Shown here piece after piece: positions 14,546-27,654 of a stretch of DNA of 64,000 nucleotides. Source of the stretch: Saprospiraceae bacterium (GTDB lineage: Bacteria; Bacteroidota; Bacteroidia; Chitinophagales; Saprospiraceae). Both the position numbers and the translations under genes were made by a program. The notes beneath the pieces were generated by a model that made no database searches, had not been told where the DNA came from, and saw only the letters and a list, made by a program, of their open reading frames with translations. The stretch lies in assembly GCA_016787345.1 (NCBI GenBank), contig JAEUUU010000004.1:27351-91350 (forward strand). Reading direction: 5' to 3'. Each line of letters begins with the position of its first letter. Position 1 is the first letter of the stretch.

Positions 14546-17104
14546 ATGAAGGTTCTCAAATTCGGCGGCACCTCGGTCGGAACACCCGACACGATTAAAA
14601 GCCTGATCGACATCCTGAAAACATACTACCGCCGCGGCGACAAATTTGCGGTGGTATTTTCCGCATTTTCAAAAGTCACCGACACCCTGATCGAGATGGC
14701 GCGCCGCGCTGCACAAGGCGATCAAACCTATATTGACCTGCTCGATCAGGTGCGCACCCGTCATTTTGAGACCGCAAAAAACCTGCTCCGGCCAGAGTTG
14801 TACGAAGCAGTCGCTGCACCCATGGCCGAAAAATTTACCGACCTGGCCAATGTGCTGCAAGGTATTTTTCTGCTGCGCGAGGTATCGCCCCGCTCCCTCG
14901 ATTTTGTCGTGAGTTTCGGCGAGCGCAATTCGGCTTTCATCATCGCCCATGCCATGCAACAGGCGGGTATCCCCACGCAATACCTCGATGCGCGGAAGCT
15001 CGTCCGGACGGATGCGCAGTTCGGCAACGCCAAGGTCGATGCCGAGGAAACCAACCGGCTCATCACCGAATATTTTGCCCATCACCCTCAGGTACAGGCC
15101 GTTACGGGTTTTATCGGCAGCACAGCCGATGGCCTCACTACGACGCTGGGGCGCGGCGGCTCCGACTATACCGCGGCCCTGCTGGGCGCCGCACTGGATG
15201 CCGAAGTGATCGAAATCTGGACCGACGTGGATGGTGTGCTGACCGCCGATCCGCGCAGGGTCAAAAAAGCATTTACGTTGCCGACCATGACTTACCGTGA
15301 AGCCATGGAAATGAGTCATTTCGGCGCCAAGGTTATTTACCCGCCCACTATACAGCCGGCTTTGGCCAAAAACATCCCGTTGGCCATAAAAAATACGTTC
15401 AAACCCGATTTTCCCGGCACCTGGATCAGTCGGAAAAGCGACGATGCCGGGCATCCGGTAAAGGGCATTTCCAGCATCAACCAGATTTGCCTGCTCACGG
15501 TACAGGGTAGCGGCCTGTTTGGGGTGCCGGGTATTGCCGCCAGGTTGTTCGGCGCACTGGCGCAGGCGGGGGTCAATATTGTGCTGATTACACAGGGATC
15601 AAGCGAGACGAGCATCACGTTCGCCGTGTCGCCCAACCAGGCCAGCCTGGCTAAAATGGCTGTGGAAAAAGAATTTTCCTACGAATTGCGCACCGGCCTG
15701 GTGGATACGCTTAAAATTGAAGGCGACCTGGCGGTAGTGGCGGTTGTAGGTGAAAACATGCGTTATCGCCCCGGCATTGCAGGCCGCTTGTTTCAGGCGC
15801 TCGGCAAAAACGGGATCAATATCGTGGCCATCGCACAGGGTTCGAGCGAGTTGAATATTTCGATCGTCGTGGCGGCTGCCGACGAGACCAAAGCCCTCAA
15901 TGCCATCCACGAGGCATTTTTCCTTTCTGATACCAAAACTCTCCATCTTTTTATCGTCGGCGTGGGCCTGATCGGCGGTACGCTGCTCGAACAAATCCGT
16001 GCGCAGGCAGCGTACCTGCTTGAGAACCGCAAACTGGAAATCAAGATCGTAGGACTGGCCAATAGCCGGAAAATGCTGTTTGCAGAAGAAGGGATTGCAC
16101 TGGAACAATGGCAAGTGCAGCTCGCCGCATCGGAGCAGCCTTTCTCTATCGCACGGTTTGCTGAAACCATGCAAACCCTCAATTTGCCCAATACAATCTT
16201 TGTAGATAATACCGCCTCCGCCGAAGTAGCCGGTTTTTACGAACAAATACTGGGCGCCAGCATTTCTATCAGCACGCCCAACAAACAAGCCGCCTCATCA
16301 CCCTATCTGCAGTACGAGCGGCTCAAACAACTGGCTGCCCAGCGCGGCGTGCTTTGGCGTTACGAAACCAATGTCGGCGCAGGGCTGCCGATCATCACCA
16401 CTTTGAACGACCTGATTCACTCGGGCGACCGTATCCTGAAAATAGAAGGGGTGCTTTCGGGGACTTTGTCTTACATATTCAACGCGTTTGGCCTCGCCCC
16501 CAGCCCTTCTCCAAAGGAGAGGGGAGCGGATAGTCCAGCAGGAGCCACTCCCCTCTCCTTTGGAGAAGGGTTGGGGGTGAGGCCCGAGGGGTCAGGCGCG
16601 AGACGCTTCTCCGACATCGTTCGCGAAGCACAATCGAGGGGCCTGACCGAGCCTGACCCGCGCGACGACCTCAGCGGGGCCGACGTTCGTCGGAAATTGC
16701 TCATTTTGGCACGGGAGACTGGTCTGGCGCTCGAATCAACCGATATTGAACTTGAACAAATCCTGCCGGCCGACTGCATGACGGCGCCGGACGTCGCGGC
16801 TTTTTTCGACACCTTGCAGCGGCACGACGGACACTTTGAACAAATGCGAATGAACGCAGCGGCAGAGGGCAAGGTGCTGCGTTTTGTAGCCTGCCTGTCG
16901 GAGGGCCGGGCGCAGATCGGCTTGCAGGCCGTCGATCAGCGCCACCCGTTCTATTTCCTCGACGGCTCCGACAACATGGTGGTTTTTACGACCGAACGCT
17001 ACCGCGAAAGGCCGCTGGTGATCCGCGGTCCCGGCGCCGGCGCCGAGGTGACGGCTGCCGGCGTGTTTGCCGAAGTAATCGGCATAGGAAGTTACCTGGG
17101 CTGA
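14546..17104 (+). CDS. thrA: Bifunctional aspartokinase / homoserine dehydrogenase
   Basis: An 852-residue fusion that catalyses the first step (aspartate to aspartyl phosphate) and third step (aspartate semialdehyde to homoserine) of the Thr/Met/Lys branch. Aspartokinase: KFGGTS at 5-10, SFGERNSA, GRGGSDYTAALL and WTDVDGVLTADPR. Two ACT domains lie at roughly 310-460 (GVPGIAARLF; RPGIAGRLFQAL) for feedback control. Homoserine dehydrogenase: the NAD(P) loop GVGLIGG near 472-478, NVGAGLPII, KIEGVLSGTLSYIFN and TEPDPRDDLSG. Between SYIFNAF and FSDIVREAQ about 32 extra residues (649-680) come from a palindromic insertion that keeps the frame. No thrB or thrC follows. The stop is immediately adjacent to the stop of the convergent carbonic anhydrase gene. 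Confidence 0.97.
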   Translation: MKVLKFGGTSVGTPDTIKSLIDILKTYYRRGDKFAVVFSAFSKVTDTLIEMARRAAQGDQTYIDLLDQVRTRHFETAKNLLRPELYEAVAAPMAEKFTDLANVLQGIFLLREVSPRSLDFVVSFGERNSAFIIAHAMQQAGIPTQYLDARKLVRTDAQFGNAKVDAEETNRLITEYFAHHPQVQAVTGFIGSTADGLTTTLGRGGSDYTAALLGAALDAEVIEIWTDVDGVLTADPRRVKKAFTLPTMTYREAMEMSHFGAKVIYPPTIQPALAKNIPLAIKNTFKPDFPGTWISRKSDDAGHPVKGISSINQICLLTVQGSGLFGVPGIAARLFGALAQAGVNIVLITQGSSETSITFAVSPNQASLAKMAVEKEFSYELRTGLVDTLKIEGDLAVVAVVGENMRYRPGIAGRLFQALGKNGINIVAIAQGSSELNISIVVAAADETKALNAIHEAFFLSDTKTLHLFIVGVGLIGGTLLEQIRAQAAYLLENRKLEIKIVGLANSRKMLFAEEGIALEQWQVQLAASEQPFSIARFAETMQTLNLPNTIFVDNTASAEVAGFYEQILGASISISTPNKQAASSPYLQYERLKQLAAQRGVLWRYETNVGAGLPIITTLNDLIHSGDRILKIEGVLSGTLSYIFNAFGLAPSPSPKERGADSPAGATPLSFGEGLGVRPEGSGARRFSDIVREAQSRGLTEPDPRDDLSGADVRRKLLILARETGLALESTDIELEQILPADCMTAPDVAAFFDTLQRHDGHFEQMRMNAAAEGKVLRFVACLSEGRAQIGLQAVDQRHPFYFLDGSDNMVVFTTERYRERPLVIRGPGAGAEVTAAGVFAEVIGIGSYLG
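16490..16584. repeat. 95-bp palindromic element inserted in frame in thrA
   Basis: The 37 bases at 16490-16526 match the reverse complement of 16548-16584 at 35 of 37 positions, and both differences are G-T compatible in RNA; the loop is 21 bases. Each arm also contains a smaller hairpin (TTCTCC-AAA-GGAGA). Translated in the thrA frame it gives PSPSPKERG and PLSFGEGLG; the opposite strand gives almost the same peptide (PNPSPKERG, PLSFGEGLG). Neither ThrA homologues nor the domain structure require it. It behaves like a protein-coding palindromic repeat of the kind known from Rickettsia (RPE). Confidence 0.9.
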
Positions 17105-26859: not shown

Positions 26860-27654
26860 TTATTTGATCATCCAACCGATATTAAATCCAATCGTACCGG
26901 CCAGCCCGGACTCCCCGGACGAATAAATGGAGCGGCGGCTGTTGCCCGAGCCATATCCGATACCGGCCGACAGGTCGAGAACAAACGCGTCGTCGAAAAC
27001 CCATTGTTTGCCGATGTTCAGCAAAAGCCCGACAGAAGTATCGTCAACCAGCTTGCGGCCGGTGCCGTTCGGATAGTCAAAAACCATTTCCTCGTACCGC
27101 ATGTGGCCCAGAAAAACCTCGGGCTTGACGTAGGCCCCCTGCAACAGGTGGCTGCGTTTCATGTCGTTGGTGTAGAAGCTGGGTTTTTTGTAAAATTTAT
27201 AGGCAAATGACCCGATGAAGCCCCGCGCATGGTCGTCGAACTGGCGACCCAGTCCCACTATACTGGCCTTCGCCTCCCAACTGCGACCCGGCCGTACGCT
27301 TTGCTCATAGAGTATGTTGGTGTAACCCAGCAAAGGCCCCAGAAAGGACACTTTTACGTTTTTATCGCGCTGCCCGGCAAAAAGCTCGCTTGCGTCCATT
27401 CGGGTCGTGCCGTAAAACTCGGTATGACCGTCCTGAAAAACGATTTTTACAATACTCTCTTTTTCAACAACATAAATGGGGCCGTTTGGCTGATCGAAAA
27501 GCCGGTATTTTATTTCCCCCACGCCCAGCTCGACAACGCTCGCCTGGACGATTTCGCCGCTTTTTTTGTGAATCACATCCTGTGCCGACAGGCCGAAACC
27601 CGTCAGACAGAAAAGCGTCAGCAGACCGATTATTCTGATAAATGCGATTTTCAT
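26860..27654 (-). CDS. Exported outer-membrane barrel-like protein
   Basis: A 264-residue protein with signal peptide ending LSAQ (residues 1-25). A short N-terminal block (IHKKSGEIVQASVVELGVGEIKYRLFD; YVVEKESIVKIVFQDG) is a motif I associate with small Bacteroidota envelope proteins. The remainder alternates hydrophobic strands and aromatic residues (FVLDLSAGIGYGSG, GTIGFNIGWMIK) and ends near an aromatic, as in eight-strand outer-membrane barrels. No function is assigned. A TACCTTTG box lies on the minus strand at 27691-27698. It is not part of an obvious operon. Confidence 0.65.
   Translation of the reverse strand: MKIAFIRIIGLLTLFCLTGFGLSAQDVIHKKSGEIVQASVVELGVGEIKYRLFDQPNGPIYVVEKESIVKIVFQDGHTEFYGTTRMDASELFAGQRDKNVKVSFLGPLLGYTNILYEQSVRPGRSWEAKASIVGLGRQFDDHARGFIGSFAYKFYKKPSFYTNDMKRSHLLQGAYVKPEVFLGHMRYEEMVFDYPNGTGRKLVDDTSVGLLLNIGKQWVFDDAFVLDLSAGIGYGSGNSRRSIYSSGESGLAGTIGFNIGWMIK

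Follow-up and report, generated by a model that had tools for sequence, protein, structure and literature searches.

An in-frame palindrome in thrA of a Saprospiraceae bacterium, a probable miniature of a nuclease-carrying, coding-tolerant element family

Introduction

Among the described systems close to the element reported here are the Rickettsia palindromic elements (RPEs), which, in the account given in PMC2229807, are palindromes of 105-146 bp that occur in frame in conserved protein genes and also between genes, and whose mover is unknown. Here, we report a 95-bp palindrome that lies in frame in thrA, the gene for the bifunctional aspartokinase/homoserine dehydrogenase I, of a Saprospiraceae bacterium (assembly GCA_016787345.1). 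The stretch of DNA that was analyzed, referred to as the window, comprises 64,000 nt (positions 27,351 to 91,350 of contig JAEUUU010000004.1). The palindrome is slightly shorter than the range given for RPEs, and shares with them the in-frame position and the presence of copies elsewhere (thrA and 11 further host genes). It works like an RPE, with which we compare it by description and not by sequence; the lineage is different. We consider it likely that the thrA palindrome is a non-autonomous miniature of a family of coding-tolerant mobile elements that carry a nuclease.

Repetitive extragenic palindromic (REP) sequences tagged GTAG or CGTC consist of a short hairpin and a tail and form head-to-head dimers. 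According to the relevant sections of PMC3733652, intragenic cases encode 20-30 aa, many of them in DNA repair genes; RPE-4 and RPE-6 are said to belong to the CGTC-tagged repeats, and the CGTC REPs are said to be without a dedicated transposase. The Correia/NEMIS miniature inverted-repeat transposable elements (MITEs) of Neisseria have a short open form of 107 bp within genes and a longer closed form of 155 bp between genes; the part of PMC2229807 that covers them places them among TA-ended MITEs with target duplications and does not mention a nuclease partner.

A published example of the intrastrand-triplex repeat of Escherichia coli (PIT/TM) is CCCTCTCCC-TGT-GGGAGAGGG-CCGGGGTGAGGG (Holder et al. 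2015, PMC4666352; Hoyne et al. cited there). In the portions of that paper available, inverted pairs are known, variants differ in the second loop, and the motif was shown to form a stable triplex in vitro when single-stranded, but neither in double-stranded DNA nor in vivo. The PARCEL coding repeats were set aside, since they are repeat domains of surface proteins and the word nuclease is absent from the available text on them (PMC2996958).

Results

ThrA carries a palindromic insert that its relatives lack

The following features of the window define the locus.

14546..17104, plus strand: thrA, host gene, aspartokinase/homoserine dehydrogenase I, 852 aa, ATG start (list of open reading frames (ORFs), Pfam, NCBIfam NF006959)
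16490..16584, no strand: 95-bp palindromic element, an inverted dimer of two triplex-type units, beginning at the first base of codon 649 (repeat search, folding, unit model)
16530..16544, no strand: spacer between the palindrome arms, 15 nt (repeat search)
16490..16606, plus strand: 39 codons (649-687) at the position of the 5-8-residue turn of relatives (alignments, residue counts)

The thrA ORF runs uninterrupted across the palindrome with its frame intact, and its product scores 1035.6 bits against NF006959 (bifunctional aspartokinase/homoserine dehydrogenase I; cut-off 726). The alignment to yeast homoserine dehydrogenase 1ebf breaks at the insert, which falls in a turn between residues 186 and 192, and the homoserine dehydrogenase part 3' of the insert aligns normally both to Pfam and to 1ebf. 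The arms of the palindrome (16490-16529 and 16545-16584, 15 nt apart) are 93% complementary across 40 nt in the repeat search. In a single-stranded DNA fold, the outer 37 positions pair as an unbroken stem of 37 bp, with an energy of -47.9 kcal/mol, compared with a mean of -18.5 kcal/mol for shuffled sequences (z -11.65; none of 200 shuffles was as good). The forward frame of thrA reads GLAPSPSPKERGADSPAGATPLSFGEGLGVRP through the palindrome, and a reverse-strand frame (16471-16872) reads LTPNPSPKERGVAPAGLSAPLSFGEGLGARP; in other words, PSPKERG...PLSFGEGLG can be read on either strand. An earlier reading of this DNA from its letters alone (the sequence-only reading) had described an in-frame, 95-bp palindrome readable on both strands, and the open ORF, the 37-bp stem and the two frames bear this out. 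Its observation that the two exceptions in the stem are G-T compatible agrees with our own reading, in which both non-Watson-Crick positions are G-T. It had further proposed that openness on both strands reflects selection on a mobile element. The palindrome is indeed readable on both strands; this openness is largely a by-product of composition, because the C-rich strand is, by reading, nearly free of stop triplets.

Just 3' of the element, thrA contains a second, imperfect inverted repeat of 12 nt (16589-16600 / 16648-16659). Rfam gave no match within the window at gathering scores.

We searched for ThrA in 40 relatives, 38 of which gave a match, and aligned the 20 best (L022-L041; 17 from the same genus and three from the same order, all bifunctional); the remaining matches were mostly aspartokinase alone. 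Between SYIFNAF and FSDIV, our ThrA has 39 residues where relatives have 5-8 (lengths counted for 19 of the 20), and the palindrome is absent from all 20. The sequence-only reading had inferred an insertion of 32 residues, to be doubted if most thrA homologues shared them. None of the 20 does, so that the in-frame insertion stands; its size does not, since the extra stretch amounts to 39 residues, perhaps including some native loop, as its last part, PEGSGARR, may be. The closest ThrA among the relatives searched is only ~77% identical, and therefore the empty site cannot be read at the level of bases. From these alignments we interpret the palindrome in thrA as an insertion. The alternative, in which the 39 residues would simply be a ThrA loop peculiar to this lineage and the palindrome a chance or regulatory hairpin, is hardly credible. 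Loop length does vary among the relatives by a few residues, but the fold energy, the absence of the insert from every aligned relative and the copies in other genes described below all oppose it, and the last of these already refutes it.

The palindrome is an inverted pair of triplex-type units

The palindrome consists of two units of ~39 nt in inverted orientation.

16490..16528, minus strand: left unit, hairpin CCCCTCTCC-TTT-GGAGAAGGG plus tail CTGGGGGCGAGGCC, read on the minus strand (model R1, 46.6 bits, E 1.1e-11)
16546..16584, plus strand: right unit, hairpin CCCCTCTCC-TTT-GGAGAAGGG plus tail TTGGGGGTGAGGCC (model R1, 50.0 bits, E 1.1e-12)

R1 is a covariance model trained on 24 units from this genome and from relatives in the same genus and order; its E-values are rough. 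The tail of the unit is G-rich, ends in GAGGCC and mirrors the purine side of the stem, as a third strand would; the match is 7/9 in the left unit and 8/9 in the right. This relation was assessed in 73 units of this genome (69 outside thrA at E<=0.01, two at E 0.05 and 0.15, and the two of thrA). The hairpin is present in all 73, and the mean third-strand (triad) fit is 0.927, whereas tails swapped among units give 0.856 (sd 0.007; 200 swaps, maximum 0.877) and shuffled tails 0.611. Stem and tail also covary, GGAGGGG occurring with GGGGAGG in 25 units, GGGGAGGGG with GGGGTGGGG in 19 and GGAGAGGGGG with GGGGGTGAGG in six; this covariation is confined to three subfamilies and therefore represents few independent changes. 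Judged by its sequence, the unit belongs to the known intrastrand-triplex (PIT/TM) type, that is, a pyrimidine-purine hairpin followed by a purine-rich third strand that mirrors the stem. The design is the same and the core nearly identical to that given in the available parts of PMC4666352. The repeats described there differ from ours in position: here dimers lie in frame within genes, and related units border a nuclease gene. Neither the repeat type nor its nuclease companion, a DUF559 domain, was recognized in the sequence-only reading.

The inverted hairpin dimers with a conserved tail also recall REP dimers, which raises the possibility that the units form a REP/BIME (bacterial interspersed mosaic element) family mobilized by a REP-associated tyrosine transposase (RAYT) of the IS200/IS605 type. 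Four matches to the Y1 transposase family PF01797 do exist in our genome. However, the simple repeat pattern is absent beside these four, and R1 found no unit at 33 PF01797 loci examined out of the larger number of matches in our genome and 40 congeners. PF01797 is not matched in two genomes rich in units, G047 (26 units) and G054 (39 units), each of them 96% complete. In addition, of 71 units only six have GTAG near an end and seven CGTC, while 55 have GGCC/GGGGC; the low CGTC count also sets our units apart from RPE-4 and RPE-6 as placed in the sections of PMC3733652 cited above. Compared with the REP/RAYT system as outlined there, the units generally have neither tag nor a nearby tyrosine transposase, their third strand mirrors the stem, and DUF559 accompanies them instead. 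With no units at its loci, the tyrosine transposase is largely refuted as the mover, and we regard this explanation as very improbable.

Copies occupy loops of many genes

The sequence-only reading had called for copies to be counted inside and outside genes. The R1 search found 71 units at E<=0.01 in our genome, and units occur in 23 of the 41 genomes of the genus, our own counted. Outside thrA, a set of 71 units merges into 44 elements, 27 of which are inverted dimers. Each of the eight dimers of 92-102 bp outside thrA falls within a frame of 337-1101 aa (nine of nine with thrA), and the sole 45-bp dimer also lies in a long frame (300 aa or more); for dimers of 130-140 bp this holds for one of five, and for those of 210-230 bp for one of 13. 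The same division into short forms within genes and long forms between genes is seen in Correia/NEMIS, as presented in the part of PMC2229807 cited above.

Hosts backed by Pfam or NCBIfam include an SF1 helicase, NAD synthase (nadE), a planctomycete-type cytochrome protein, MurC, 4-alpha-glucanotransferase, LpxB, a SpoU methylase and IleRS; Pfam adds an SNF2-type protein, and a membrane protein (L132), unmatched in Pfam, matches NCBIfam only weakly. We aligned 12 host genes, thrA among them, each with 2-19 relative sequences. The inserts are missing from the orthologues except in three cases, all in genome G023, which has its own palindrome in the same loop of the L132 homologue, another repeat in the cytochrome protein and a nuclease domain in the helicase. 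Because loop lengths vary among relatives, native residues may have been partly replaced at the insertion sites. With in-frame copies, orthologues without inserts and readability on both strands, the proposal that this is a mobile, coding-tolerant element like an RPE holds as an analogy.

Several other arrangements were observed among the units. The nadE gene (L127:2833-4821) of our genome has three units at one site, with ~77 residues between the aligned parts, as if insertions had been stacked. Two intergenic dimers of ~220 bp in our genome (L147 2075-2294 and L145 2026-2249) are flanked by 9-nt tandem repeats of the type AATCGAAAC, which at L147 stand in inverted order on the two sides; this is a separate element type with the same ends. 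L138 (G000:C33:2554-4731) and G007:C7:51546-53722 each contain three units with equal spacing (~963 and 1173 nt), perhaps a shared older cluster. Single or degenerate units lie directly before WPNP/FPNPS in L052, L063 (G017), L057 (G009), L179 and L185 (G007); this stretch is presumably the start of a type IX secretion sorting domain.

A DUF559 nuclease domain accompanies the units in sister species

In the helicase of G023, a unit, a DUF559 domain and an inverted unit lie in frame at the site where our genome has a bare palindrome. A search with PF04480 (DUF559) in the 41 genomes of the genus, many of which are draft assemblies or metagenome-assembled genomes (MAGs), gave 27 matches in 21 genomes. 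From their flanks, 15 of these lie in frame inside host proteins, namely ileS (eight genomes), helicase (five), mutS (one) and hemD (one). Pfam confirms the hosts in the seven of the 15 that were scanned (helicase, MutS, IleRS-type synthetase and HemD); MutS domains III and IV flank the DUF559 domain, and in hemD a HEM4 match is found on one side only. R1 units occur within ~200 nt of all 15 in-frame loci (nine on both sides and six on one; at L273 one of the two flanking units is a partial match), as opposed to none of the 12 other DUF559 loci, four of which are weak partial matches. By genome, a strong DUF559 match is present in 16 of 23 genomes with units and three of 18 without (p 0.0013), and an in-frame DUF559 in 14 of 23 and none of 18 (p 2.9e-5), these Fisher p values being too small because sister genomes are related and independence is overstated. 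Moreover, the 20 units adjacent to DUF559 resemble the dispersed units (14) of their own genome more closely (0.88) than those of other genomes (0.75; 0 of 2000 permutations).

Short palindromes and nuclease-bearing copies share loops, as the helicase case and two others indicate. The ileS of our genome has a single unit (ASLASPLERGPGGEAADLHRPYID) in the loop that holds DUF559 in eight sisters, and its peptide resembles the downstream end of some of the sister insertions (SPLERGPGGE-DLHRPFID). The leuS of G015 (Pfam) has a palindrome at a junction that DUF559 occupies in ten leuS-type hosts from other families.

The residues D, E-x-D and H, which we take to be catalytic, are invariant in all 15 in-frame domains, and the sole match in the PDB is 3hrl, an endonuclease-like protein (E 2e-33). 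In 13 pairs, the nuclease has a ratio of nonsynonymous to synonymous differences (pN/pS) of 0.07-0.23; synonymous sites are close to saturation. According to the available text of PMC12907096, the DUF559 protein VsrA of Caulobacter is Vsr-like and causes DNA damage in certain mutants. Among plasmid records, 43 contain a relative of one DUF559 domain, all below 60% identity, and no recent vehicle is evident.

The hosts of 15 DUF559 copies (seven in the genus and eight from the wider set described below) show host domains and DUF559 in Pfam at E<=1e-5, and no splicing domain. Vsr-like homing nucleases exist, and homing endonucleases and inteins likewise place a nuclease in frame with a host protein in conserved genes. 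Our elements differ in having structured repeats at their ends, in the miniature copies dispersed in other genes and in that Pfam showed no splicing domain in the scanned hosts.

The association extends across phyla, and copies change host genes

With the DUF559 alignment as query, GTDB genomes yielded at least 577 relatives, of which we used the best 80, picked by likeness to the in-frame set. In 42 of these, DUF559 lies in frame with an open frame of at least 120 aa on each side. Eight of the wider hosts were scanned by Pfam; they belong to Bacteroidota, Elusimicrobiota, Pseudomonadota (Rickettsiales) and an archaeal MAG, and include a leuS-type and another class I tRNA synthetase, hsdR (two), metH, mfd and recJ. 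In ten leuS-type hosts, the domain lies between IGRS and FTTRPDT. At 50 of 76 scored loci (28/42 in-frame and 22/34 others), the inverted repeats spanning the domain lie above the 99th percentile of 280 control placements. A unit lies beside the domain in 48 of the 80 loci (25/42 in-frame and 23/38 others; both sides in 27), and 89 of 111 R1 matches (E<=0.01) fall no more than 250 nt away from it, where units are 39 times as dense as in the remainder of these loci.

We then consider a tree of 95 DUF559 domains, which has few columns and many weak forks and whose host labels derive from simple motifs (L319 is labelled 'othr' despite its leuS motifs, and L293 and L273 are the same DUF559 sequence). 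The host labels need 31 changes on this tree, the ileS label at least three across well-supported branches, and the helicase copy of G020 nests among the ileS copies. The labels cluster, so that copies are commonly inherited within a site, yet they also change host genes. This bears on the possibility that ileS, leuS, metH and helicase hold DUF559 as a passenger or as a domesticated domain of benefit to the host, the repeats serving as flexible linkers. The low pN/pS and the reuse of the same loops, such as that of the ten leuS-type hosts, would fit such a role; the patchy presence of DUF559, its switching between host genes and the units scattered elsewhere in the same genomes would not, and we consider domestication improbable as the general explanation.

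A Rickettsiales genome (L307 and L317) has in-frame DUF559 both in mfd and in a class I tRNA synthetase, with flanks of the PNPLPKEGEG/PNPPP type; these loci are a possible bridge to the RPEs. In four filamentous cyanobacteria (L296, L302, L326 and L336), DUF559 genes stand alone and the order of units is reversed (plus before, minus after).

Filled and empty sites show no target duplication

The sequence-only reading had predicted a cleanly empty site with a short duplication, which was not what we found. Three pairs of filled and empty sites from G007 and G009, all of single units, show a net gain of 24, 30 and 45 nt, with a few native codons replaced by the unit and no duplication. Direct flank repeats of at least 5 nt occur at 3 of 27 dimers, compared with 6% of controls. 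A DNA-transposon MITE is expected to duplicate its target, for which these pairs and dimers give no support. The lack of duplication, together with the replacement of codons, favors repair-like insertion over a target-duplicating transposase.

The lack of duplication would also suit repeats that spread by themselves through replication or repair errors at triplex or hairpin DNA (template switching), to which DUF559 is merely attracted. In support of this, the thrA copy and its own reverse strand agree at 84% along the whole element, compared with 72-78% for other copies that match over at least 85 nt (81-85% in some stretches of 41-50 nt), and triplex repeats are reported to accompany local rearrangement in E. 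coli (PMC4666352, in the parts available). Template switching leaves unexplained, however, both the in-frame DUF559 between units in unrelated genes and phyla and the 15/15 versus 0/12 split of units between DUF559 loci. We therefore regard it as unlikely, if less so than the other alternatives.

Discussion

We favor the reading of the thrA palindrome as a miniature of a nuclease-carrying element, which builds on the observed unit structure, copy number, in-frame sites, absence from orthologues, association of units with DUF559 within the same lineage, host change on the tree and nuclease-free units at ileS and helicase. In a full member, triplex-type repeats would stand at one end or at both ends of a Vsr-like nuclease domain (DUF559), and the whole would occupy a host-protein loop in frame, host and nuclease forming a single open frame. 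We infer that the nuclease moves the element: acting in trans, it would recognize the structured ends or cut the target, and repair would copy the element into the break, leaving the target without duplication and at the cost of few native codons. Selection would purge insertions that break the frame or the fold, and in essential genes only multiples of three in tolerant loops would survive. Survival would be likelier even without special selection on the peptide, because the C-rich strand is open in all frames. Our genome has probably lost DUF559 and kept the palindromes.

Several observations weigh against this reading. Our genome (G000), which is 94% complete, has no PF04480 match, so that no autonomous copy was found; nor do the unit-bearing G010, G016, G022, G040 and G043, some of which are incomplete, and G009 has units with a weak partial match only. 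Conversely, G005, G012 and G045 have DUF559 outside host frames and no units. The E. coli control genome has no DUF559 match, though E. coli carries triplex repeats, and the 23 PIT/TM repeats of MG1655 are all intergenic and not tied to transposons, phages or plasmids in the available text of PMC4666352. In the wider set, chosen as it was by likeness to the in-frame copies, 32 of the 80 relatives have no adjacent unit, and 23 of the 48 that do are not in a host frame by the 120-aa cut; within the genus, relatedness weakens the Fisher tests. That the nuclease is strongly conserved is also compatible with its domestication in certain hosts. Finally, the filled and empty pairs and the dimer flanks revealed neither a target duplication nor a defined target site.

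The repeat type of the unit and palindromes in frame, such as the RPEs and intragenic REPs (PMC2229807 and PMC3733652, in the parts consulted), are already known. In the literature searched, we found no report that links triplex repeats or in-frame palindromes to DUF559, or that describes in-frame DUF559 elements; the listed entries for open-licence papers naming DUF559, and the available text of one of these, PMC12907096, likewise gave no tie to repeats or in-frame insertion. In a text search, PSPKERG was absent among the matches listed, and LSFGEG occurred once, in the listed entry for a paper on cyanobacterial desaturases. The DUF559-linked element thus has a fair chance of being a class of its own. 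We put at about even the broader proposition that DUF559 with triplex-type ends constitutes an unrecognized class of mobile element, which would lie in frame inside essential proteins without being spliced out, be expressed via the host gene and seed many phyla with miniature palindromes; some coding palindromes and transposase-less REP families could be its footprints.

For the question of what moves coding palindromes such as RPEs, and of the nature of triplex-type repeats, a recurrent and conserved nuclease offers a concrete, testable candidate. If this is true, protein loops would have a one-step route by which to gain whole domains. It would also account for the 'endonuclease domain' annotations within tRNA synthetases, methionine synthase and repair enzymes, and peptides like PSPKERG and LSFGEG would be footprints of the element, to be treated with caution in annotation.

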